Shown here one piece after another: positions 20,001 to 64,000 of a stretch of 64,000 bases of DNA. A program made the translations under genes and the position numbers. The notes under the pieces are model-generated. The model saw only the letters and a program-made list of their open reading frames with translations, ran no database searches and was not told the DNA's origin. Positions within the stretch are counted from its first letter, which is position 1. Every line of letters begins with the position of its first letter. The DNA comes from Taiwanofungus camphoratus (Eukaryota; Basidiomycota; Agaricomycetes; Polyporales; Taiwanofungaceae). Location of the stretch: assembly GCA_003999685.1 (NCBI GenBank), contig CP021221.1:806001-870000 (forward strand). Reading direction: 5' to 3'.

Positions 20001-22525
20001 CTTGTTCACCGTCTCAGGTCAGCATCTGAGGGTTTCAACTTCATCTCATCGGACAATATGATCAACATGCGGCGGAATGCTGTTGAAGATGCCGAGTTTC
20101 AGCATGAGACTTGGAAGCAAAGCATACGCGCTCTGCAACAAAAAATCGTGCTGACACTGCAGGCTGAGCAGGCTCGATTGACAGAGGAGAAGGAGCGCTC
20201 AGAAGCTGATGGTCGCGCGAAGGTCGACCAGGAACGCTTGGAGGATGAATTGCGCGCAAGGGCTGAACCAGAACGACTGGAGGAAGAAGGATTGGCGACT
20301 GATGGACGGGAGCATCAGCAAAGGGATGAGAAGGAGAAGGTTGATCAGGCGCATATTCAGGCAGAAGAGAGAGAAATTTATGAGCGGGAACGGCTTTGGA
20401 TGGAGGAAGAAGCAAGCTCGAAGCAACAGTCCCTCGCGATAGAAGAGTTGGAAAAGCAAGCAAGCCCACGAGGAAGGGGGGCATCCTCAATACGAGAAAC
20501 ATGCGTAAGTGAGGATCAACCGGGAGTTGGGCTGCTGCTCGAGCCTGTGGAGGAATCTGATTTGGAGAACTCCATGATTTATAGCAAGCAAGATCCAGAG
20601 GTCGTAGAGGGTAAGTGTTACCACTTTTTGTTGTGATAGATACTGGCATGCTCACACGGAGATAGACGTCTTTGGCTTGCGAATACAGCCATCCGCAGTG
20701 CAAGTCAATGGTCAACAACGAAGTGATCTGCAAGCTCGAATATTCTCGTTGCGCAAGCTGTTGAGATCTATTAACATCAGTGAGCTTGTAAGGCCCAACG
20801 CACATTCTGATTTTTCTCTTCCAAGTGACGAACAAAGGAAACGCGTTCAGAGCCACTTGTTGGCGATTATTGCTGAAGTAGATGGGTTACCTGTGCCGAC
20901 ACCAGAAGATCCTTCTGTCGAAACCGAACTCTGTTCTCTACGAAGTGAAGTCTCGGCTTCCATTGAATGGATGCAAAAAGTGCACCAGCTGGCAGACCTA
21001 TCTATTACTCTCTATAACTGTGACAATGCTCTCAGCGACCTCTTGGAGCACATTGACAGTTATCCCTCCCCGCCACTGGGGCCCTTATCTACATCACATA
21101 CGTCCGATCCGGCCTTAACCCCTGAAGAACAACTGTCTGCTCGCTTGTTGTTCACGAAGACCACCATCAGAGATATGTCATCTCGGTATTCTTCAGCCGC
21201 TGACGACCCTCGCGCTGCACCAGAGCGTGACCGTATATTGCAAACTTGGAGTGAATTAGAAGCTATGAGTATGGATCGCATAAATGGCCAAAGATCAAGA
21301 CCGGGCAGTGTCATCAGCTCGGGCCGGAGTAGCAGAGCCTCTGCAATGACGAGTTCTACATCTGCGAAAAAGAAGACTGGTACTTATGCGAAGCTCTCTG
21401 TCGGGTCCTCAGGAGATCGATTTCTCGCGCCGCCACCGCTGAACTCCAGACGATCCGTCTCTGGTTCTTCTACAGGACATCACGGTCGTTCATCTAGTAG
21501 AATGTCCATTACGTCTTCCAGCCGGTCAGTATCAGGCCCAATTTCGAATTCGTCTTCACTACACAGTTCGACATTCTCGTCTCGTCAGAGAACGACAAGT
21601 GTATCGTCAACTTTAGGTCCAATTAAATCGCCACTACTGAAGCAACCGCAGTCAACACCTGCTCGTCCGCGGGCACAAACAGGTCAATCAAAGCGAACTG
21701 CTTCTCCTGTACCTTCCGATGCTTCTTCAATCTCCGTTTCACGTTCAGGATTTAGTGCGAATCGATCATCAAATTCGCGCTCTTCTTGGGCACGCGCTCC
21801 AAGGACATCATTTCCGACATTGTCAAGGCCATCGACACCCCGAAATAAGGCGACAATGATACCAAAGAAACCATATATCGCTAACCCGAAGAACAAACTA
21901 GACGTCGCAGTCGGCCATGTCGTGAACAGGCTTCCTGTCAATATTAACGTTGAAGTTGTCGCAGATACATGGAAGGACCAGAGCGGTAAATATTGGATCG
22001 GTGATCAAGACCCTAAGCTTTGTTTTTGTCGAATATTGCGTTCACATACCGTCATGGTTCGCGTGGGCGGTGGATGGTCAGAGCTTTCGAAGCGAGTTCG
22101 GTTGTCGTTTAAGCTGTAATACTTTCCTGACCTTATGCGACAGATTTATTAAGGACCACTTTGCTGAAGCGTTTCGAATGCTGCCAGAATCTCCGCCGCG
22201 CCCAGGAACACGAGAAGAAAAGTGGATCAGCTCAACCACGCTTTCTCAGGCAGCTGAAAACATTGTACCTTTCAATCCGTCGAGAACGCCAGAGCCGAAA
22301 AGCCCGTTCATCCCATCCTTTGCTCTATCCACTCCGAGTGGGACGAGCCCTCATTCTCTCAAGTCTTCACCGTCGCCGGGTTCTCCTCTTACTCCATTGC
22401 AGTTCCTCAGACGAGCAGAGAGGGAATCGCCCAGTTCGCGATCAGATACGCCGTCGAAAATCTTGCGACCTGGGATATCTACAGTTCTCAATACCCCTGC
22501 GCGCCCACCCGTTTGGCGGCCGTAA
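17044..22525 (+). CDS. Large GAR-domain microtubule-binding protein
   Basis: Six exons (17044-17289, 17342-17531, 17589-18198, 18248-20610, 20666-22115, 22144-22525) sum to 1746 residues with all phases consistent. The first two thirds is mostly helical, spectrin-like, with a strongly charged coiled coil at about bases 20150-20450 (Glu/Arg/Lys-rich). A Ser/Arg-rich disordered region follows (about 21290-21850). A GAR (Gas2-related) domain then spans roughly 21865-22175: KLDVAVGHVVNRLPVNINVE, WIGDQDPKLCFCRILRSH, VRVGGGWSELSKR, then FIKDHFAEAFRM across the last intron. GAR domains bind microtubules in Gas2 and spectraplakins. A TMIP tetrapeptide in basic Ser/Pro-rich context lies just before it. 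Kar9-like or spectraplakin-like roles are possible; which is not settled by sequence. Confidence 0.88.
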
Positions 22526-45244: not shown

Positions 45245-48234
45245 ATGCCGGACAGCCAAATCTTTAAGGTGAGGTGCAGTTCGAGCTTCGTGACGCGTTG
45301 TGTTCAAATACATCTTGACCCCGTATTTTCCCAGGCCACCTACAGTGGCATTCCGGTCTACGAGATGTAAGCTTTAATTGACGCGTATAACGCGTGGCTG
45401 ATTGCTGATGTTTTTTCAGGATGTGCAAAGGAGTGGCTGTTATGCGTCGCCGTTCGGACTCATGGTTGAATGCGACACAGATTTTGAAAGTCGCTGGGTT
45501 TGATAAACCGCAGAGGACTCGCATTCTGGAACGCGAAGTGCAAAAGGGTGAACACGAGAAGGTGCAAGGTGGTTATGGGAAATATCAAGGTGAGCACTGC
45601 TTGAGCCCTGAAGGAGCTGCCCCTATTTTCGCGCGAAGATGTATGAGAGTCGAACATACTTCTTCAGTAATTGAACTCCTGGTGGTTGTTTGGAAGTCGG
45701 CCTACATGCATATGCGATAAAGGGGCTCTTACATTGACGGTGCTTCAACTATGAATGTTGCAAGTGCTTACTCTCGATTGACATTGCCTATAAGCTTGTG
45801 ACTCGAAGACAGGACATTGTCCCCGATTATATTCCCCATACTCTCGAGGGTCTCCGACTCTGAACGTGGCGAGATTCGCTGCAGAGATCCAAGCAAATAT
45901 GGTCATAACCATGCATCGCTGAAATTGGCTTTTCTTGATGCTCGATATGATGATTCAGGCTGTGCAGGTGTGCCTTTTGAGAAGGTTCACATAGCAATGA
46001 CGAGCTGGTCTTAAGGAACATGTGGAGGACTCTGGCGATGGTATAGTGCCCCCTGCCGAGTCGCAGCTTTTCAAGGATCCATCCTTATTGATGTTTGATG
46101 CCAATATCTCCATTATCTATTCGTTATCAAAAACATCATGTGCGAAATGCCCATGTGTCGTTGGCTTGAACAGGCAGCAATCTTTGATACTGAATCCTCC
46201 CACTTTTTTTAAAATTTGCAAATAGGAACATGGATTCCTCTCGAGAGGGGCCTTCAGCTGTGCAGGCTATATAATTGCGAACAACTCCTCCGACCTATTA
46301 TTGATTTCCAACCCGAGGCAACAAGTCCGCCTCTCGCACCTAAACATTTGGTTGCCGCACAAGGGAGCAAGCCGCCGTCGCGTCGGTTAGGTGCTGATTT
46401 GGCAGCAGGCGGTTCCATGATGAACACTAGGTCATCGAGAAGGAATCAACCAGATGCTGTTGATGGTTCCGAACTTGACGCCCTGTCAGTTCGAGGCTCA
46501 GAAGACGGGACAATGACCCCATCTCCTTCCGAGGCCTCCTCAAGTTCGCGGACACCTTCACCTATCCGGAGCAGCCCAGCGCCGTCGGTGGTTCCATCGA
46601 ATGGTGTTGATGAAGAGTATCGCTCTCCACCTCGGGAAAGCAATCGGAAACGTAAACAGCGACCGACGAACGTCGATTACGAATCCGATCAAGAGCCAGC
46701 GGGCGAAAACAGTTCCCATGATACATCTATCTATGGCGACCAGATTCTCGAGTACTTTATATCTGATACGAACCAGATACCCCAAATTTTGATATCCCCT
46801 CCGTCTGACTTTGACCCGAACATGGCCATCGATGATGATGGACATACCGCTTTGCACTGGGCAAGCGCTATGGGTCGTATTCGAATCGTGAAGCTCTTGC
46901 TCACGGCAGGCGCTGATATCTTCAAAGTCAACAAAGCGGGCCAAACAGCGCTGATGCGGAGTGTTATGTTCGCGAACAATTATGACGTCCGGAAGTTCCC
47001 CGAACTTTACGAACTCCTGCATCGGTCAACACTCAATATTGACAACAGTAATCGAACCGTCTTTCACCATATCGTAGACGTAGCCATGTCGAAGGGCAAA
47101 ACTCATGCTGCTCGATACTACATGGAAACCGTTCTTCATCGATTAGCAGACTTTCCCAGAGAACTGGCGGACATCATCAACTTTCAGGATGAGGACGGTG
47201 AGACGGCTCTGACGATGGCTGCTCGGTGTCGGAGCAAACGGCTGGTCAAAATTCTCATTGATCATGGGGCCGATCCGAAAATTGCCAATCGGGACGGCAA
47301 GACTACAGAAGATTATATTCTGGAGGATGAACGTTTCCGTTCGTCGCCTGTACTGCCCTCCCGCGCGATGTCAATGTCGTTCAGGAATGCACAAGCCGCG
47401 TTTCCTCCGCCTGGCGCTCCTGCCTACTACTCGTTCGGCCCATCAAACGGTGATCGGCCACCCTTGCATTATTCGACAACGGGGCAGAGGGCAGCGACAC
47501 GCTGTGTGAACGATGTTACAATGATGCTTGATAGCCTGGCAAGCGCATTCGATCAAGAGCTCAAGGACAAGGAGAGGGATTACAATCAGGCGAACGCGCT
47601 ACTTGGGAACATCCAGGCGGAGATTCTTGAGAGCCAGCGCACAGTCACGCAGTTGAAAATTCAGGCACAAGGGTTGCCCCAAGCAAAGCAGGCCCTGGGC
47701 TCGTTAGAGGAAACCCTTCGCTCAAAAATGGGCAAGCGCTACCGACTGGGGTGGGAGAAGTGGGTCAAAGATGAGGAGGAGCGCGAGAAGGCCGTCCGCG
47801 ATGCGCACGGCGGGTTCCTCATAGCATCGTCTCCTGAAGAGAATATTACGGACCTGGTTGCGCTATATGACGGCACGCCGTCACATCCGGACGCGGTCCG
47901 CGAGGAGTGCGAGAAGCTACGGGAGGAGCTTGTAGTGCACAAAAAGCGGAGAAAGGAAAAATTTGAAGAGCTTGTGAAATTCCAGGCGGAAGCAGGGACT
48001 GGGGGCCGAATGGCAGAGTATCGGCGGCTGATCGGTGCTGGGTGTGGGGGCGTCTCGCCTGGGGAGGTGGATAATGTGTTGGGCATGTTACTTGAGGTAT
48101 GTCCTAGCAGCGAGATTGATCTTCTGCAGCCTTGACAGTTTCTGTAGACATTAGAATCCGAGGAGCCTAGCTCTTCGCCTTTTGCTTGGAGTGGCAGCCA
48201 AACGGTCGGGCGTCCAGCAATGTCAGTGGGATAG
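45245..48234 (+). CDS. MBP1: APSES/ankyrin transcription factor Mbp1 (MBF DNA-binding subunit)
   Basis: Five exons (45245-45268, 45335-45366, 45420-45589, 46226-48096, 48148-48234) sum to 727 residues. The N-terminal KilA-N/APSES DNA-binding domain reads [19 protein letters not shown], then [32 protein letters not shown] and [17 protein letters not shown] disordered Ser/Pro stretch follows, then ankyrin repeats: [33 protein letters not shown] and [21 protein letters not shown] coiled coil and C-terminal helix finish the protein. MBF/SBF factors activate G1/S genes through ACGCGT boxes. Such boxes occur upstream and inside introns 1 and 2. Intron 3 (45590-46225, 636 bases) is about ten times longer than the others and splits the DNA-binding domain. 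Confidence 0.95.
45293..45395. promoter_or_regulatory. Three further MCB elements within MBP1 introns 1 and 2
   Basis: ACGCGT occurs at 45293-45298 (intron 1), 45381-45386 and 45390-45395 (intron 2). The last two are separated by three bases. Presence of several sites near the start suggests autoregulation, which is inference. Confidence 0.5.
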
Positions 48235-49384
48235 ATGCGTATACCAATGGGACTTTTGCTACGTGAAGGTCATTGGTGTTTCTGTGTGAGTAGCTTGGTT
48301 ATCTAGGTGTGTGTCAAAGGTTGCTTGTAATAATATTAATGTAGCATCGCCTGCGTACATGTACCAAATGCCGGGCAGTACTTACAAACCGGAATTTGAT
48401 GACATATTATAGTACCGCCCACAACGTATGCAAGACTTGAGAATGTAATGACTGATCTCATCCGGAACTCCTTGTTCGACACTTTTGTGTGACGCAGATC
48501 CGCATTGTACTACGTGGTGAGTTTCACACTGCGTCGGGCAACCGAACTCGCGGCAGGCGAAGCATGTGGTGGACGGGCAAACGGACCGCCTTTCCAGACT
48601 AACCTTTGTGGTCTGTACTGGCATCGATGATTGGCTGAGAAACTCTTGAGTGTTGGCAGATCCCTCATCCTTCGACGTTCCATCGGTGCCGCATGAATCA
48701 CAATTTGAAAGTGCTCTATGCTCCCTGCTGGCATCCGCCTGGTTTCGACAAGTTTTGTGTGACGGTGAGCTCATCTGCATTCTCTCCTTCTGCAACCTCG
48801 TCATTCCCCCTTACACCAACTCATCTTCGCAGGCATTACTTGCTCAGGCACAAACAGCTGTCTGAAGCTCATGAATGTCACCACATTCCCTTGTCTCATC
48901 ACTTGACTTCTGTGCAACAACAAGCCTGCATTGACGAGTTCAATCTTCTATACAGGCTGCTACCAACTTATCCTTGACCCCCTGCACATCTGAAACTATC
49001 TCAACAAAGATGGCATTGAGCTGATCACTTTTAGAAAATGTTACTGCTACTAATGTCTGCCTGGATTATTTTGACAACATGTCTCTTCTCATCTGCATGG
49101 GACCAATGCCAGTATTGAAATTCAGTGTTCTCAATACCTATATGGTGTGAAATAATGGCTGGTTTCTTGCTTAGCTTATATGTATTGAAATGGATAACCT
49201 GATTATATTCAATGGAACATTGTTGAGAGTATGTATAAATCCTATCAACAATTTGACTCACAATTTTGGTAATAACATGAGATAGTCTCAACTGTTATTT
49301 GCTTAATGTCAACAACGTTACCTGCTGTGATCTACGATTGCGAACAATATCTTTTGCAGAGAAAAAGCGACTCAATAAACTCCT
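48235..49384. other. AT-rich intergenic region with a Cys-rich frame
   Basis: Apart from the Cys-rich frame at 48382-48804, no gene is recognised. Bases 48980-49330 are particularly AT-rich. The composition differs from neighbouring genes and resembles that of the 5' half of paralog B. Confidence 0.45.
48382..48804 (-). CDS. Cysteine-rich open frame, possible gene fragment
   Basis: I do not recognise this frame. It has paired Cys motifs (NCDSCGTDG, CFACREFGCPTQC, KSCIRCGRYY) that could form zinc ribbons, and some His residues (CETHHVVQC). The frame is open for about 140 codons in AT-rich DNA, which is longer than expected by chance but not decisive. No intron structure or homolog is evident. 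It could be a remnant of a mobile element or an orphan gene. Confidence 0.25.
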   Translation of the reverse strand: MTRLQKERMQMSSPSHKTCRNQADASREHRALSNCDSCGTDGTSKDEGSANTQEFLSQSSMPVQTTKVSLERRSVCPSTTCFACREFGCPTQCETHHVVQCGSASHKSVEQGVPDEISHYILKSCIRCGRYYNMSSNSGL

Positions 49385-49463
49385 TCCGACACGGGGAATC
49401 GAACCCCGGGCTATCGCGGACATAAATGAGAGGCGATAATGTTAGCCACTACACCATATCGGA
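49385..49463 (-). tRNA. tRNA-Glu (anticodon CUC) with an 8-base intron
   Basis: Read on the minus strand the gene begins TCCGATATGGTGTAGTGGC and ends GGTTCGATTCCCCGTGTCGG plus a final A. Acceptor arms TCCGATA/TGTCGGA pair over seven positions, with one T-G. The anticodon stem is ATCGC/GCGAT, and the T stem is CGGGG/CCCCG around TTCGATT. The loop between the anticodon stem arms is 15 bases; with anticodon CTC at 49428-49430 and A37 at 49427, the standard intron position gives an 8-base intron at 49419-49426. Removing it restores a 7-base loop and 71-base mature tRNA. A box and B box motifs are present. Confidence 0.93.
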
Positions 49464-54396: not shown

Positions 54397-57300
54397 TCAC
54401 TGCTGTAAACCGCCCACCCCATTTGACGCGTCCGCGTCGTCCTCGTAGCCGAGTTTAGCTTTTTGGTTCTTGTGCTTCTTGCTGTGCTGTAGCGTGCGGC
54501 AGTCACATGTCCGTGTCATGAAGTCTGGATCTCCATCCAGAGCATCGAGGGCGCTCAAGGACGCGCGCCGCATTGCGGAAGAAGCCGTTGCATCCATCGC
54601 GCTCGCGAGAATGATATCGTGGACGACGACTAGTCGTCCGATGTCAGCAGTGCCCATTGCAGAGACATAGGCAACTACTGACCGTCGCAACGCACACCAC
54701 GTACTCCCTCTGCTTCCTTGACAAGCTGGTGTTGATGGCATCGCGAGGCGTCGAAGATGGCGAACAGTGTCGTGTTTGGATGTCCAGACAGTGTCTGAAG
54801 CCTGATGTGTCTGTCGTAGAACGGCTTGATGACGTTGTCGAAGAACTTCGCCACTCCGGTTTCTGAGAAGCCCTCCGAGACGTAGAGAGCACCGATGATG
54901 GACTCCACGATGTCTGAAAGGACCTGACGCAGATCAAAATGTTACACACAGTCTCCTGTGACGACTCCAAAATTCACGCTCACCTTCGGATGGTCCACCT
55001 CGAGCCAGTACTGGCCAGGCGGCCTCCTCTCGCGTTCTGCCAGCGCATACTCGTGTTTCTGCAGTGCGTTTACTTTTCCCATGTATGCTTGAATAGAGTT
55101 CCGGAGTTCAGGTGCAACATGCTGGATGTGCTCATGTAAACCACAGCTCACGCACAGTGCAGCTAATGCGCTATTCGATACCATTGCTTGCTGTAATTTC
55201 GCCTGTCACTTCCACGTTTGCTTATATAATGGGTGTTGCGCACCTTGATTAATGTGATTCCACCCGGGGACAGGTGCGGATAACGATCAAATGCGTGTCG
55301 AACTACGACTGGAGAATAAAGACGGTAATTTCAGGGGTTTCCATAAAAATAGTCATCTAAATGGCTAGGAAGACTTACAGAAGTCCAGGATTGCGTCCCC
55401 AATGAACTCGAGCCTATCATAGCCAGTAAATTCATGTCCTTCAATAGACCGATGTGTCTGACTAAACATGAGCAGGCAAACGCGTTTCATACGCAGGAAT
55501 AGGACTGACAATGGCCTGGACGAGCAGTTGCGGCTCCGCGAGGTGGTGACCAAGTATGGCCTCTACGGCTGCAAGAAACTTTGCTGGCCAGGAGGTCTTG
55601 ATATTGGGAGCTGGTATCGTTGCCTTTCGAGCGAAGTCGGACCAGTGCGCGACCTTGGGGATGTCGACACCCAGGACCTTCGTGACGTCAAAGGCTACAT
55701 GTAGGCCGCCAGACAAATACGCTGCTCCGATTATGGCCTCGACGACATCCGCCACGGTCTTGATTCGTCAGTTCGAGAGCCGAGTTGCTCATCAACGAGA
55801 ATTACCTTGTCTCCTAGCCATTGGATGTTCTGCTCATCCCCCTGCCTCTGCCTCTTGCCACGCCTTTTCTTCTGTGCTTGCGAAGCCTTTACACCCTACA
55901 TTATTATACTCCTGCCAGTATGCGAGGTTGTATGCCTACCTGTCCTTGTCCAGTCGGCGTCTGACCAGTACCACCGGTACCATTATCGCAGTTCTGGCCG
56001 TCAATTGAGTAGATTTTACTCGTCGTCTGGGAGTCAACTGAGGTAGGTTCTGAAACGACGGGCAGCCATAATTTTGCCACAAACGGCTTGCTTTGAATGT
56101 ATGGAGGTAGGCCTACACGATTCGCGCCGGATAGCAAAGCTTTGTTGCTAATAATTTGCTGGCGAATGACATGGAGAGCACCCTCCCTTTTGGTAGGCTC
56201 AATCACAAAACAATATATGGATGCCACGTATTTCAGGTAAGCGTCCCCTGTTTGATATGGTTTTTAAAGTGGATATTGGACTCAAATAACGGACGTGAAC
56301 GCATACCTAATAATTCTAGACGCTCATAATCATATTCGACGCCGGCGACAGAAGGTGTAAGCGCGGCGATCAACAACCGCTCCAGGATGGAGTGGTGGAA
56401 GAACTTTGCATTGAGCTCCTTTACAAGTAATTGATCATCGATTCTGCGAGTAATAGAAGGTAGAAGAAGCAGTGTCCGGAAAGTGCTGCGTGTCTTTTTA
56501 GTACTATCGCTGGTCAGGAAATTGTTCATACTTACCTCGCTGGAATGGTGAGTTTTGCGCATAGCTCGGGGATAAGGTCTGGAATAAGTTGCAGTGCTGC
56601 CATGAAAATGAAGAGGGGCGCTCACATTTGACTGGTGCTTGTGTAGGCGGTGACACCGATGGCTTACAGGTCGGATTCAGATTGTTCACGATGGCAGGCG
56701 CAGGAGAAACTTGTATGATAGGCTGATTGTAATTCTTGAGTCCCTCAAAGCTCTTACGACGTGCTCTACAATATTCAATGAGATTGTCGTAACCTGCTTC
56801 ACGCTAGTCACAGATGAGCATACTTTCTGCCTTAAAACCCATAGCAAACTCACCGGACTGTCATCAACCCTGCTTAGTGGCGTCAAGTCATGCCTAACTT
56901 CAGTGATAAAGAATCTGTTGGTAAACTCGACCCATCTGTCCTGAACAATTGAGTCTTCGACACAACTTTCAATTGGCATGTGTTCGCCAGGCAGTAAGGG
57001 TGCCACTGGACGATCGGCAGCGAGTCGCACCAAGTCCCATGGAATGTGGCTATCGACGGTAGGGTGCTCCCATCGCTGGCTGTGACTCTCGCTCGTATCT
57101 TTCCATGTGGAACTGAGAGGAGCGATCAAATATGGCATGCTGCCCACATCACAAGAGAAAGGCTTGTTTGTGACAGCTCGACAAACTCTAGTTGTGTAGG
57201 CATGAAGAGTGTCGAGATGATCTTGATCTACATAGAAGGCTGCCCCTCTCCGAAGCTGCACAGTAGAGGCATTACCAGAAGAGAAGACAGAGAAACTGAA

Positions 57301-60008
57301 AAGGTCTGGCAAGGGTAACTTGGTAAGTATTAGGACCGGAACATACGGTTCGTCTCTGAGATGGCCCGGCAAGACGATTGTCGGGTAAATTAACTTCTCC
57401 GGGACGGATCGAGTGTTTGACCAGAAGTCAGGTCGTTTTCTGGGATAACGATGCGTGCCAGCGGATGCCACTGCAGCAGTGACATCACCATTCGCAGGGT
57501 TGCTTGCTACAGGTAAGACGTTCAAGGACATGTCAAGGCCTGTCCGAGGTGGTTGAGGAAATAAACGGCAATCAAGGACACCTTTCGCAAACAACTGACT
57601 GCAAGCCTGATAGCAAGCCGTCCATCGTGCCTCAGAAACGGAGGAAGAGAGCGGACCATTGATGGCGGGAACAGGGCAGGCTTCGGGAAAGAAGACGGTG
57701 CATTGGAACTTCGGTTCAGCGTCCACTTCGTCTACCTTGTGGAACCCGAACAGAGATCGAGGACTGTACTTTCCCTCTTGTAAGCTTGCTGCAAGTCGAT
57801 AAATGACCGCCGCGGCATCCGACTTCCGGAGTCGTCCACTTGTTGTAGGATCCTGAATGTACTGTGCAAGCTCATCTTCATCATCGCTATCGGAATAGTA
57901 CGGATCGAGTGTATCATGCAAAGATGCAGGAGGCATAGCACTCTCAGTGCTACGAAACATCGTTGAAATCCAGTATTGCAAGTCGTCGTCGAGGTTTGTC
58001 ACTTCATTAAGTATGCGGCGATGCAAATCGTTTCCCCTTTCTAGCATGTGTACAACACGACTTTGTGAATCCACGCATCGCGCAAGTGAGAAGGCGTATG
58101 ATAGCTGGCTGTCGAAAAGATTGTAACTTGTCAAAAGAACAGGCATGAGTACGAAAAATCAAGGCCAGCTGGAGATGCAACGCCTACTGGATGACCACCG
58201 AAGACCTTGGAATATCCAAGACATCTGCAGTCTTGGTGATTACGAGGAGATTGTAGGCACCTGAACTGAAATCATGAAAAAGCTTTTGCCGCAGAACACG
58301 TTAGACGTGTCAGCCCGAGCATTGCATAAGACGACTTGCTTGGTGCTGTAATTCATTACAGACCTCTGGGCCTGTCACAACTAAAGGGCGGACAAAGCCC
58401 AGCTCATGCCCAGGCAAGTCGCTCAAAAGCTGTACAATCAGGTTCGCGACAACCCTTCTTCTGACTTTGGAAAGACACCTTGTTTCAGCTTGAATGCTCA
58501 AGATACGATGGATACTCACCGATAACCAAGCCTCGAAAATCTTCGCCGTACTTACACGTCTTCAACACTTCCACCAGCTTGGTGAACTTAGGTGAGACGT
58601 TGTGCTTAGTTGAACTGTCATCGGTACATGGCCTCTGAAATGACCAGGACCTCATGACTTCCCGTATAGCTGACTTGGCCATGTTTGCGGTTGCATCACC
58701 AGAGGTCAATGGTGTTTTCCAGATGTCGTGAAGAGCATGACTCCAGAACATGTCCGCCCCACATGATCCTAGTTCAACGAATACGTCATGCGCAACTTTA
58801 TAAAGGCGAGATGGAATCACCCCTGCGGTATCCGCCTGGCATAGCTGGTTGGAAAGTGATGTCGTCACCGAGTCGGCTCTGTCATACAGCATCACCAATT
58901 CCATCGGGTAATCCAGACCGTCTATGATGGTGATTGGTTTGCGCGATTCACACAAGTATAATGTCTCTGCTTGCAAAACCATCTGGAGTCGGGTGAGATT
59001 TGCGGGGCCTGTCACCACCGCGAAAAACTTCGATGTGGAGACAAAGTGAGGACTAGTCCGAGAAGACATGCACATGGTCGCCAAATCTATCCAGTCAACC
59101 CTCTGCGTATCGCTGAACACCATCAAAGACATATGATTTGTAGCTATGAGCTTTTCGTCCAAAGACTTCCAAAGCGCCTGTCAATCGATAAGTTCTCAAA
59201 CTCGTGATGGGTTCAAAAGTCTTACATCGAAAGTAATTATTATAACGTCGTTCTTTGACAATATAGACCATTGGAGAGAACCATTCCTGTAGTTCGAGGA
59301 ACCATACGAGCCAACCGCTAGAGGATTCTCTCGGGTTGCCGTCAATGCCTTCAGGAAATGGTTGATCGCAGCCTCGGAACTAAAGAACCAAGAGTTGCTT
59401 TGTATCACTACAATCTTACTACATTACATTCAAAACAGGACTGACTGAACGACGAGAAGTATGAATTGGCTTGGTGTATCGCTCGAGCGACGTCTCTGAG
59501 CCATGACGCTCCGCTTCGCTACATCAACAACTAGCGATGTTTGAACTAGACAAACGAAAGATTCAACGCATAGTCGAGGAACTTTCAGGTGAAACATACC
59601 ATCTCGATTCTCCACAACAGTAATCACTGCATCGCAGAGATTTAGACATAGTTGCGCGCAGAAAGAAAAGGAAAGTTTACAATTCTGTAGTCCTGCCCGG
59701 TCCAAAATCTTGTGTTCTTCTGCGGATGCATAAGACTCGTTTCCCCCAGCGATGACAGCATGATTAGATTGAACTATCCTTCGCTTCTTCGTAGGACGGA
59801 CAGGCGTATCACAGCGCGATGAGTCAGAGTCGTCGACACAACTAGTCAGAACAGATTCTGATCCCGTAGATTTAATAGCCAGGGAAGAGCTGGTATGTGG
59901 AGCTTGCCTCGGAGACAATGTTGACATTGAATCTATCGATGTTCTACTGCTTTCTGGTACTTGCACTGAGGATGCTATTTTCTGTGCTTGCTTCCATAGC
60001 TCGAACAT
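54397..60008 (-). CDS. Dicer-like RNase III with degenerate helicase domain
   Basis: A long multi-exon gene. The N-terminus (MFELWKQAQKIASSVQ, Met at 60008) carries a basic patch PTKKRRIVQS that could be a nuclear signal. A helicase-like region follows; at the Walker A position it reads VENRDVQTSLVV and at the DExH position LMVFSDTQ, so both ATPase motifs are lost. The C-terminal RecA-like lobe is recognisable (LLVITKTADVLDIPRSSVVI, SYAFSLARC) but motif VI has also decayed. The dimerisation domain (DUF283) is at about 57600-57850 (AAVIYRLAASLQEGKYSPR, EARWTACYQACSQLFAKG). RNase IIIa has YERLELLGDAYLKYVASIY and VADVVEAIIGAAY; RNase IIIb has GYDRLEFIGDAILDF and LSDIVESIIGALYVSEG. All catalytic acidic residues are kept. 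A degenerate dsRBD ends TRTCDCRT. Dicers cut dsRNA into small RNAs. No canonical PAZ domain is seen. Confidence 0.88.
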
Positions 60009-60316
60009 GGGTAGGAGTGAGGCTTGCTGAGCTACGAATTGCCGTCTCTCAATTCGCGTTTGCCAGGCTGAAGAACACAGGATGTAGAAGCCGTCAAGTA
60101 TTCATACTAAGTATTTAGTATGCCAGTGTGCTCTGCGGACAAAAAAGTCATGTCGTCAAATGATCCAGATCATCTCTCGGTTACAGTGATATTTAGCGCC
60201 CAGGGATTGCACTGCGTTGCCGGATCGAACCTGTGCTAAGCAGAGAACAGCCACTAGCATCCATACAGGAATCGCATTATACTGTTGCTCATGGACGCTA
60301 TCCATCCCACACTGTC
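60009..60316. promoter_or_regulatory. Divergent promoter, Dicer-like/unknown
   Basis: A 308-base spacer between divergent starts. No gene is seen; both promoters probably lie here. Confidence 0.5.
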
Positions 60317-61918
60317 ATGGTCAATAATGCATACATTGTGTTACAGCTCGCCAGCGAGCTCGAGAATGAAGGAAACAATCCATTCGCGACGGTAAGAGAG
60401 CGATTGCCGCCTGCCCCGTGTCTCCTGACTCGTCTTCCTTCGACTGGTCTGTTTACGATTGGGACCATATTGTTACTAGAGCTGACATGATACTATCAAG
60501 GTTTTCTTCTGCGAGAAGCGGAGCAACTTGCGCCAAAGGCTGTGATCAGACAATTACGGCGGACGCCTAGCCCTTCGCCACCAAGCTCTCCTTCATTGAG
60601 TCTTGCGGCTGTAGACGAGCGGGAAGACCGTACGATCGATAACCAGGGCAATCGAGAAGATGCAATACAATCGCAGTCTGAGAGCTCTCGGATCACAAGT
60701 ATCACTTCAGTGCTATCCTCCGTATCCCTCGCGACTTCCAAGTTGTCGCCTAGTCGCACTACACGGGTTGACACTCAAGACAGAAAGTCATGGAAAGTGC
60801 CTGAGGCAAGTGCTCAGATAGTGGTTGGAATAACATGTGCTTGACGAACCTTGATAGCCGTATGAAGTTTTCCGCGCAGTCGAGAAGAAGGATGTAACTT
60901 TCCTGATGGAGGTTCGAGATCGGGCATTTCATGTATGGATATTAAGCATTATTCCTTTCCCTGGGTTATTTTTATTATTGCTACTGCAGTTACTGGTCCG
61001 GAAACATGGCGATGCTACTCCTCTCCTCCATGCCATGCGCATCGGCAAAACTCATCAGGATGTGGCCATTGTCCTTCTGGGTGCCTTCTCGCGGTATGTC
61101 AACAATCTGCAGGACGACGAAATCTCACTACCGCGTACGAAGATGCTTCTTAAAGCTCTGCGTAAGTCTAGCTTCTATTGTGGGTGACTGAAGCTGGAAT
61201 GACAGGACGCAGGTGTGAACCTCAGATTGGCAATCGATTTCGGCCTGCAAAGCTCCCAGAGCGACCTAATCGCTTCTTTTTTTCAAACCCTAATTATGAG
61301 TGAAGGTGATAAATGGGTCTCAGGACAGGTGGCGGATATTGCTGTGGCTTTGCGCGCAGGAACAGCGGGCAAGCCGGTTCAGACAGCCGATTCTGCTATC
61401 AGGAAATTTGCTACAAAGGAGTTGGGGAAGGCTAAGATGATAGCGGCTCTTGAAGATTAGTAAGTCGTCAGGACTCTTAGCATATTGCATTGTTACAAAT
61501 TGATGAATGCCGCAGTGTTGCCAACGCCACAGCCGACCTCCTGATGATGGCTGCTTGGTGGTGTGCATTGGAGTCCATCATGGGTGACCCCGTCCCGGTA
61601 CGCGGAACACAACATATGACTAGAGTCCCAAATTGATATGCTTGTCCAAAAGACTTACTATTTTGCCCGAGATGATCGTGTGTACAGGGCATTCGTTGAA
61701 CGCCTCAATCAACACAAGAGTGATATCGAGCGCTTATTAGGTCGACGTCTTCGGTGGCAGATCAGAGTTCTGCGGAAGGTCATGGAAGGAAGGAGCAGGA
61801 GTTGGCATGTCAGTATTTATGTCTTTTCCTTGGTCTTTACTGACCACGATATCTTATTCGATTGCAGGGAAAGGTTCAGTTACTGGCTGAGGAGTTCGAC
61901 GAGGGCGAGGGCGTGTGA
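60317..61918 (+). CDS. Conserved helical protein of unknown function
   Basis: Eight exons (60317-60446, 60501-60805, 60858-60932, 60990-61161, 61213-61459, 61516-61597, 61653-61808, 61868-61918) sum to 405 residues. The N-terminal 140 residues are variable and Ser-rich (TPSPSPPSSPSLSLAAVDE). From about residue 145 the text looks conserved and helical: PYEVFRAVEKKDVTFLMEVR, LLHAMRIGKTHQDVAIVLLG, VNLRLAIDFGLQSSQSDLI, KFATKELGKAKMIAALEDY, VYRAFVERLNQHKSDIERLL. It ends in an acidic tail. The PLLHAMRIGKTHQDVAIVL stretch resembles an ankyrin-like pair of helices but I would not call it one. I do not recognise a named family. The intron at 60806-60857 starts with GC. It is divergent from the Dicer-like gene. 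Confidence 0.75.
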
Positions 61919-62864
61919 GATGTGGACCTCATCTTAACATTATTTCATATGAATTTGCGTGTTGGCCGTTTCATGATTGTCATGATTGTATCAACAGATT
62001 CCATGCAAGATCCCTCATCAAGTGCATCACCCCCATCAAGTTGTTTGTTGGTGAGTCGAGTTTGTTTGGTAACCTTAACTTCCACTATATTCAGATCAGC
62101 CAATTCAAATGGTTGAGCTGATCACCCATTTCGCCAGTTGGTGGACTATCGCCAACACGTATACTTCCGCGTTTGTCTGTTCATTTGGAACCGATTATTG
62201 CTCATACAAGGTGCCATGCGGGTTCAAGAGCAATGCCTGTACTGATGGCGTATCATTGAGCATATATCAAATGTCGTCGGAGTGTTGAGATAACCTAGTA
62301 CATCGTGCACTTGTCTCAATTATGTCTGACCTGCTCGTACAAGGTGCCTTCCGGGTCCAAACATACAACCCGTGTCGGGGCGTATTCTCGAGCACACACC
62401 GCATCACATCGCTGTAGTCGCATGTAATTCCACACCCTTTCATAAGAATGACTAGTGCGTCATCCGAGACTCGGAATTTTTATTCAATGCCAGCTATGTA
62501 TCGCGGTGTGTATCATCATTGGTCGAACCGGTCAAAGAGGGGACAGAATAGGCAGTTCTAGACAGCCACTCATTATGCAGGACGAGCCCTCTGGCGCCCA
62601 TATTTCCTCGTTCATATTGAGCTGGAAGTGAAACTCCAGACTACTTGAGAAACAGGAAGTGCAGCCTTCTTGTTTAAAGATAGTCGTCATTGATGACAGT
62701 TGCTAACAGTATTGGCGTCTGTTAGGGTTGGCCTACTTCGAATATGCGGTGCGCTTCTAGATGAGTCCCACATAAGAAAGCATAGCAATGATTATAGAGG
62801 AGACCAAGATATACTAAGTCCGAGTAGATGCCGTTGAAACCTCAAGTGTACGATACTAATGAAC
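61919..62864. other. Convergent spacer with a diverged tandem duplication
   Basis: This region lies between two convergent genes. Two imperfect direct copies of about 80-90 bases occur near 62200 and 62330 and are listed separately. No gene is recognised. Confidence 0.5.
62203..62420. repeat. Diverged tandem direct repeat, two copies
   Basis: Copy 1 near 62203 (gctcatacaaggtgcc, followed by gcgggttcaa) and copy 2 near 62333 (gctcgtacaaggtgcc, followed by ccgggtccaa) align over about 80 bases with scattered changes. They are about 130 bases apart start to start. Confidence 0.6.
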
Positions 62865-63663
62865 TTAGAAGATAATCTTCATTTTCTTGACCCATAACCA
62901 CACAGCCACGATGAGTAAGCTCAGCACAGCCGGGGCGAGGTCTAATTGAAGTATGGTATATACCCATATTGTGGCCAAGGGAGGGCACTGGTGGAGGATG
63001 CTTTGAACTACGTGCCAGATGTCGCTACACGATCACTTACCTGTTTCATGACAACACGCCATGATGCACGATTGACGATCCATATCATTCGAGGTCCCAC
63101 TAGCAAAGAAATAATAAAGAGAAAGCCTTGCATCGAGCGATATTGCTTATAACGAGTAGCTAAAAGACAGTAAGCAGTTCAGTCTGTCAAGATCTAGATG
63201 GAAATTCCATACTGTAGAATATGAAAATAGACAGAACTTGCAGTGTTAATATTACTATGTGTAAGACGACGGGATATGCACATCCTACACTCACTTGGCA
63301 CGCTTGGCAGCATCCGATCTGCCAGATCCCGATACGTAGGTTTTCTGCCATACTGCCAGTGAACCAAACTAACAGCCGATCAGAGGTTGAGGGAGTTTGA
63401 TCCCGTGTGTAGACGTACATTTCCATCAACAGTAGAAGGAAGGACATGGGTATTATGAAAAGAGTGGCATTGAAAATCTCCTCTGCAAATGGAGTATCTT
63501 CTTCTGGGACTCCTGTGACCGTCGGTCCACCCGTAGACTGCGGCAAATTCTTGAGGATCCCAGTTTGGTTGATGATGCGCCATTGGTCTTCCTCAGGTAT
63601 GCCTACGTCTTCCGTTGCCTTGGGAGATTTGGACGCCTTCGATTTTTTGCGATTCATGGTCAT
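62865..63663 (-). CDS. DUF7719-type small integral membrane protein
   Basis: Five exons (63419-63663, 63295-63368, 63213-63236, 63041-63159, 62865-62987) sum to 194 residues in frame. The N-terminus is basic (MNRKKSKASKSPKATEDVG), then EEDQWRIINQTGILKNLP. Membrane segments follow: IFNATLFIIPMSFLLLLMEI, a loop with LVHWQYGRKPTYRDLADRML, PSVPILSIFIFYTTRYK, FLFIISLLVGPRMIWIVN, and a last segment LDLAPAVLSLLIVAVWLWVK with a KKMKIIF end that could retain it in the ER. These features fit the fungal DUF7719 family, whose function is unknown. The acceptor at 63369-63370 was chosen because it restores the LVHxQYG motif. An alternative start two codons downstream (63657) is possible. Confidence 0.82.
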
Positions 63664-63843
63664 AGGCGACGAGCGACTACGATGCAGACTGCAACTGCAA
63701 TGCAATTCAAAAGCAAGAGCCGACTGAGAAGTGCGGCGATCTATCACGTGCATAAGAATGCGTGTCGCCGCAGAGCATTCTTGAAAACTCTGCGGCAGTG
63801 TCAACACAATGCCAGGTTTCAGTATTCAAATTTGACTTAGTCG

Positions 63844-64000
63844 ATGGCTGAGACCAACCAAGAAAGATTGCTACGCATCCTCGAGGCCCGCGGTCAACAA
63901 TTCCTAGGTTCTTTCGCATCCCCGGTCACGATCGGGAAGAGGAAGAGCAGAGGAGTAGCAGAGGAGCAACGACATAGCAGAAAGCGAAAGGTGCAAGAGC
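63844..64000 (+). CDS. Start of a further gene, 3' partial
   Basis: An ATG at 63844 opens a frame that runs off the window: MAETNQERLLRILEARGQQF, followed by a Lys/Arg-rich stretch (KRKSRGVAEEQRHSRKRKVQ). The basic start suggests a nuclear or nucleolar protein, but 52 codons are too few to name it. It shares a 180-base divergent promoter with the DUF7719 gene. Confidence 0.55.
   Translation, partial: MAETNQERLLRILEARGQQFLGSFASPVTIGKRKSRGVAEEQRHSRKRKVQE

Follow-up and report, generated by a model that had tools for sequence, protein, structure and literature searches.

Dicers whose helicase is active spend ATP when they process long dsRNA; among those that cleave short hairpins, some work without ATP. 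A Dicer-like gene on the minus strand of a 64,000-nt stretch of the Taiwanofungus camphoratus genome raises the question of which of these two kinds of enzyme it encodes. This whole stretch is called the window here, and plain coordinates refer to it. A preliminary description had proposed a Dicer-like protein that has lost the ATPase motifs of its helicase, and the full-length gene model, the motif alignment, and the pattern scans reported below bear this proposal out. The genome also contains two paralogs with intact helicase motifs, which were used as references throughout, and the gene in the window is therefore referred to as the third Dicer.

Gene structure and domain composition

Candidate introns on the minus strand were listed and the exons joined, which yielded a spliced coding sequence of 4608 nt with a single terminal stop, encoding 1535 aa. 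All 18 introns were 44-81 nt long and had GT-AG borders. The least certain parts of the model are the start codon and the last intron (54682-54630); several splice acceptors are ambiguous, and an extra exon may lie upstream of 60008. The coordinates of the gene, its helicase motif positions, and its other domains are collected in Table 1.

Table 1. Features of the third Dicer gene in the window, with the basis on which each was assigned
Feature	Position	Strand	Basis or remark
Third Dicer gene, Taiwanofungus camphoratus	54397..60008	-	19-exon model, coding span; frame and GT-AG check, Pfam
Helicase lobe, about residues 90-506	58072..59741	-	HEL1 weak, HEL2i fair, HEL2 strong similarity to paralogs
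Walker A (motif I) position, residues 114-121, VENRDVQT vs LDTGSGKT in both paralogs	59538..59615	-	Alignment; split by intron 2
DExH (motif II) position, residues 223-229, VFSDTQR vs VFDECHH (C3) and VFDEAHH (C7)	59100..59120	-	Alignment
Motif III position, AVVTGP vs GMTASP/GLTASP	59004..59021	-	Alignment
Motif IV, GLVIVRRR, kept; paralogs GIVFVEQR/GLVFVTRR	58454..58532	-	Alignment; split by intron 5
Motif V position, VITKTADV-LD vs IATSVAEEGLD	58214..58243	-	Paralog and PDB alignments
Motif VI position, YAFSLARCV vs YLQSRGRAR/WAQSRGRAR	58072..58098	-	Paralog and PDB alignments
Dicer dimerisation domain (DUF283)	57553..57816	-	PF03368, 53.3 bits in genome search; E 6.3e-13 in spliced protein
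PAZ region, residues 881-1010, human Dicer PAZ-like	56413..56949	-	4ngb E 1.2e-7; Pfam PAZ E 0.0062
RNase IIIa first acidic signature, YERLELLGD	56243..56328	-	Intact; split by intron 11
RNase IIIa second acidic signature, ADVVEA	55735..55752	-	Intact
RNase IIIb first acidic signature, YDRLEFIGD	55395..55421	-	Intact
RNase IIIb second acidic signature, SDIVES	54900..54917	-	Intact

The Pfam family Ribonuclease_3 matched the spliced protein in two stretches (E 6.6e-42), and the signatures of both domains agreed with the earlier statement that the two RNase III sites downstream of the helicase are intact. The helicase families produced no Pfam match in the spliced third Dicer at E up to 10, whereas the Dicers on contigs C3 and C7, included in the same run as controls, matched DEAD, ResIII, and Helicase_C at E 1.0e-12 to 1.1e-16. 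The C3 control sequence was used without its last 67 residues. The dsRBD family was found at E up to 10 neither in the third Dicer nor in the C3 and C7 Dicers. The PAZ region of the third Dicer scored 16.9 bits with the Pfam PAZ profile, under the cut-off of 28.8, and resembled the human Dicer PAZ (4ngb) at the E value given in Table 1; the C3 and C7 Dicers had no Pfam PAZ match at E up to 10.

Loss of the helicase motifs

Nine helicase motif stretches of the third Dicer were aligned with those of the C3 and C7 paralogs, whose intact motifs served as positive controls. In addition to the positions listed in Table 1, the Q motif and motif Ia were broken in the third Dicer, while the TAQ stretch was partly retained as VIIITFD. 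Judged by this alignment, the third Dicer is a protein that has lost helicase motifs Q, I, Ia, II, III, V, and VI and has retained motif IV. The alteration of motifs III and VI, already claimed in the preliminary description, was confirmed in the comparison with the paralogs, with the motif VI position (58098-58072) lying outside the span of 58485..60008 to which that description had assigned the protein. The two canonical paralogs also differed from each other in motif II, which reads VFDEAHH in the C7 Dicer (C7:2027000-2036500) and VFDECHH in the C3 Dicer; their other motifs were full in both.

The security of the alignment to the paralogs was assessed separately for each subdomain with 1000 shuffles each. 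The local alignment of HEL2 reached a z value of 18.4 and that of HEL2i a value of 5.1, and HEL1 reached 2.3 locally and 4.1 globally. Within HEL1, the C-terminal half, which includes the DExH position, had z values of 2.2 (local) and 3.2 (global), and the N-terminal half, in which Walker A is expected, had values of 1.1 (local, 141/1000 shuffles scoring as high) and 2.3 (global, 17/1000). Similarly, hhalign aligned the end of HEL2i together with HEL2 at 95.6% and did not align HEL1. The construct AncD1D2 (PDB 9mw6), which comprises a Dicer helicase and DUF283, scored 38 bits against the third Dicer and 297 and 209 bits against the paralogs; the helicase lobe of the third Dicer alone scored 24 bits. 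A sub-threshold stretch of AncD1D2 (0 bits) paired with the same region as the Walker A position. The prediction of exon 5 alone (58521-59177) by AlphaFold2 without an alignment was uninformative (pLDDT 36.5, pTM 0.22).

HEL1 has diverged so far that it is recognised by its place in the domain order and a weak alignment. HEL2 is securely aligned, and motifs V and VI are therefore broken within a secure domain. At the positions of Walker A and the DExH box, the residues ENRDVQTS and VFSDTQ named in the preliminary description were indeed present and the motifs absent, but because HEL1 aligns weakly to the paralogs, it is uncertain which residues correspond to Walker A one by one. Consequently, what the alignment places opposite Walker A and DExH is a best guess; the absence of the motifs themselves is not a guess.

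Dicers and other RNAi genes of the same genome

The assembly searched comprised 33,194,378 bases in 15 contigs. The RNase III profile produced eight matches in the whole assembly, and the Dicer dimerisation domain produced four matches at three places. From these profile matches, the genome was read as containing three Dicer genes, on C3, on C7, and at the locus in the window. Since two of these Dicers have intact motifs, ATP-driven dicing need not depend on the third. Two more RNase III matches were located outside the three Dicers, at C5:993176-993502 (31.4 bits) and C1:2020958-2021200 (30.4 bits). One scan of viral contigs, made with the RNase III part of the third Dicer, found no relative.

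Matches to Argonaute (22) were grouped into about seven loci on C2, C3, C7, C13, and C14, and matches to RdRP (16) into about six loci on C1, C2, C3, C10, and C11. Several of the Argonaute and RdRP matches contained internal stop codons, which may be introns. The counts of three Dicers, seven Argonaute loci, and six RdRP loci fall inside the ranges given for Agaricomycotina in the cited section of a comparative study, namely 0-10 Argonautes, 0-4 Dicers, and 0-14 RdRPs (PMC4290597). The assembly further contained 13 matches to PF20153 (DUF6535). This family is not known outside Agaricomycetes. These counts and matches are those of a likely mushroom-type basidiomycete.

Relation to known Dicers and proposed mode of action

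With a probability of roughly 70%, we read the third Dicer as a PAZ-bearing, helicase-poor enzyme of the type known as clade Ba2 or mushroom DCL-3, which would dice independently of ATP and anchored at dsRNA ends. A survey from 2025 classified 2911 fungal Dicers, and its cited sections describe a non-canonical C group of 273 proteins in which PAZ was detected and helicase and dsRBD were not, mainly from Basidiomycota and associated with clade Ba2 (PMC12663654). According to the same sections, Dicers without any helicase component or with HeliC alone belong mainly to Ba2, the Ba2 Dicers are "potentially lacking ATPase activity", and the commonest number of Dicers per Basidiomycota proteome is three (PMC12663654), the number also counted in this genome. 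The third Dicer shares with this group, as there described, the RNase III pair, DUF283, a resemblance to animal-type PAZ, and a helicase and dsRBD that are negative in profile searches. It differs in that its PAZ scores under the Pfam cut-off, whereas a canonical PAZ was detected in the C group.

The mushroom-specific, PAZ-bearing DCL-3 was reported from Coprinopsis cinerea in 2018 (CC1G_00230; PMC6145500). As described in the cited part of that paper, it resembles the third Dicer as a PAZ Dicer of a three-Dicer mushroom and in its length (1499 aa vs 1535 aa), a comparison made by description. By its domain make-up, the third Dicer fits the Ba2/DCL-3 picture, of which it would be another example rather than a new kind of system. 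The new detail suggested by the alignments is that the motifs have been erased in a lobe that is apparently still largely present, having been eroded rather than cut off.

Two Dicers outside the fungi are instructive for comparison. Drosophila Dicer-1 likewise has a degenerate helicase, including HEL1, and acts independently of ATP, and the second Dicer of the fly retains its ATPase, according to the cited passages of PMC10328071 and PMC11658451. The helicase loss of the fly enzyme is also centred on HEL1 in the account of PMC11658451. Unlike the third Dicer, Dicer-1 is an animal enzyme with an established substrate (pre-miRNA) and an established partner. The Giardia Dicer, as presented in the cited parts of PMC12663654, PMC10328071, and PMC11658451, needs no helicase to cut dsRNA and possesses PAZ and platform; its helicase lobe is wholly absent, whereas the third Dicer still has one. 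For the consequence of losing Walker A, the passage cited from PMC11658451 reports that human Dicer with the Walker A mutation K70A has almost no ATPase left.

In the mechanism that we propose for the third Dicer, the ends of dsRNA would be bound via the platform and PAZ, and the RNase III pair would cut at a fixed distance, releasing a single product per binding event. Dicing would be non-processive, and the enzyme would not use ATP to travel along the duplex. What is left of the lobe, chiefly HEL2i and HEL2, may at most serve passively, as a clamp, gate, or docking surface. The two canonical Dicers would process long blunt dsRNA, and the third Dicer might prefer short hairpins or dsRNA with 3' overhangs, comparable to the division between Drosophila Dicer-1 and Dicer-2. 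By this analogy, substrate rules differing from those of the canonical Dicers, which the preliminary description had also envisaged, are plausible.

A fungus with two ATPase-motif Dicers and one without would make the division of labour known from flies accessible to study in another kingdom. The case further suggests that where domain surveys score a helicase as absent, they may be counting lobes that are eroded but present, so that the question shifts from loss to re-use. No Dicer described as a pseudohelicase was found among the open-licence papers searched, and the motif-level finding is not claimed here to be unpublished. A paper in Mycologia from 2013 reportedly dealt with Dicer and Argonaute in Basidiomycota and may already cover this Dicer group.

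Erosion and possible re-use of the helicase lobe

In the helicase, the third Dicer was identical to the C3 Dicer at 94/398 positions and to the C7 Dicer at 91/399, compared with 169/443 between the two paralogs. The corresponding counts were 49/170, 58/175, and 53/166 for RNase IIIa and 44/165, 55/170, and 56/161 for RNase IIIb. Where the C3 and C7 Dicers agreed, the third Dicer retained 56 of 172 helicase columns and 66 of 110 RNase III columns. From these column and identity counts, it follows that the helicase has diverged more than the nuclease relative to the paralogs.

A loss specific to the motifs within an otherwise conserved helicase found no support when tested. The motif columns were lost no faster than the others, with 16/54 motif columns retained compared with 40/118 other conserved columns (Fisher p 0.60), and the same held for HEL2 alone (5/15 vs 21/47, p 0.55). 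To judge from these columns, the helicase loss looks like general erosion rather than targeted loss.

The lobe has nevertheless kept its reading frame, as the preliminary description had maintained: each of the seven introns that cross it is GT-AG, and its coding sequence contained no stops, compared with a mean of 22.7 and a minimum of 8 in 2000 base shuffles. The codon score of residues 91-540 was 0.136 bits per codon in frame, higher than in all 1000 shuffles and not lower than that of the RNase III part of the same gene (0.113 bits per codon). The helicase lobe thus still looks coding. Between the Walker A position and the beginning of Dicer_dimer, the third Dicer has 478 residues and the paralogs have 530 and 553, which makes the lobe 10-14% shorter than theirs. 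A lobe that is still coding and just this much shorter speaks against wholesale truncation. This sets the third Dicer apart from the picture in the cited sections of the survey, which relied on domain hits and regarded the shorter N-termini of groups C and E as possible true truncation (PMC12663654). However, since motif columns were lost no faster than others, coding state and length are no proof of present selection.

What this lobe now does can be read in two ways. The preliminary description had suggested that it was kept for structure or partner binding, but the data would be equally compatible with a passive relic. As a tentative extension of the main reading, to which we would give somewhat less than even odds, the lobe would be a true pseudo-helicase, that is, an ATP-free clamp or partner dock under selection, which would have arisen in mushrooms independently of fly Dicer-1; the helicase-negative Ba2 Dicers in general would then be eroded and re-used, not truncated. 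Alternatively, the lobe may be a passive relic in an enzyme that still dices, free of useful constraint and heading for loss as in the helicase-less Dicers. The equal erosion of motif and non-motif columns, the nearly unrecognisable HEL1, and the shortening of the lobe are in favor of a relic, as is the possible truncation in groups C and E considered in the cited part of the survey (PMC12663654). The unbroken frame with its normal codon score, the seven regular introns, and the strong relationship of HEL2 to the paralogs (z 18) argue against it, and we consider it rather unlikely.

The gene as a whole might also be a pseudogene or unexpressed. A third copy that diverges fast would agree with this, but 1535 open codons, 18 GT-AG introns, the retained RNase III signatures, and the conserved RNase III columns noted above do not, and in view of the open frame, the splice sites, and the codon score we judged this possibility highly unlikely.

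Finally, an error in the gene model, such as missed exons or an assembly fault, might conceal an intact helicase, and the ambiguous splice acceptors leave some room for it, especially at intron 2 (59599-59546), which adjoins the Walker A position. Three in-frame acceptors are possible there, none of which produced a Walker A in the pattern scan. The minus strand of 54397-60110 was scanned for Walker A, DExH/D, QxxGRxxR, and QxxGR, and its sole match was a DEVD in the Dicer-dimer exon; the plus strand of the same interval contained three further matches. On the minus strand of 58100-64000, the sole full match was a DEVH at 61933, accompanied by two bare GKS triplets; this DEVH lies 1.9 kb upstream of the Dicer gene and is flanked by stops. 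The ATPase motifs are supplied by no minus-strand frame of the Dicer gene, and the scan thus also covered the case, raised with the original proposal, that they are located elsewhere in the protein. With motifs V and VI broken within the securely aligned HEL2 as well, a gene-model error was judged very unlikely.

Other features of the window

On the plus strand, the window contained a large open frame with ankyrin repeats (46213-48135) and an open frame with a GAS2 domain at its end (20608-22119). A single tRNA gene, tRNA-Met (cat), was located on the minus strand at 49384-49463 by both ARAGORN and Rfam.
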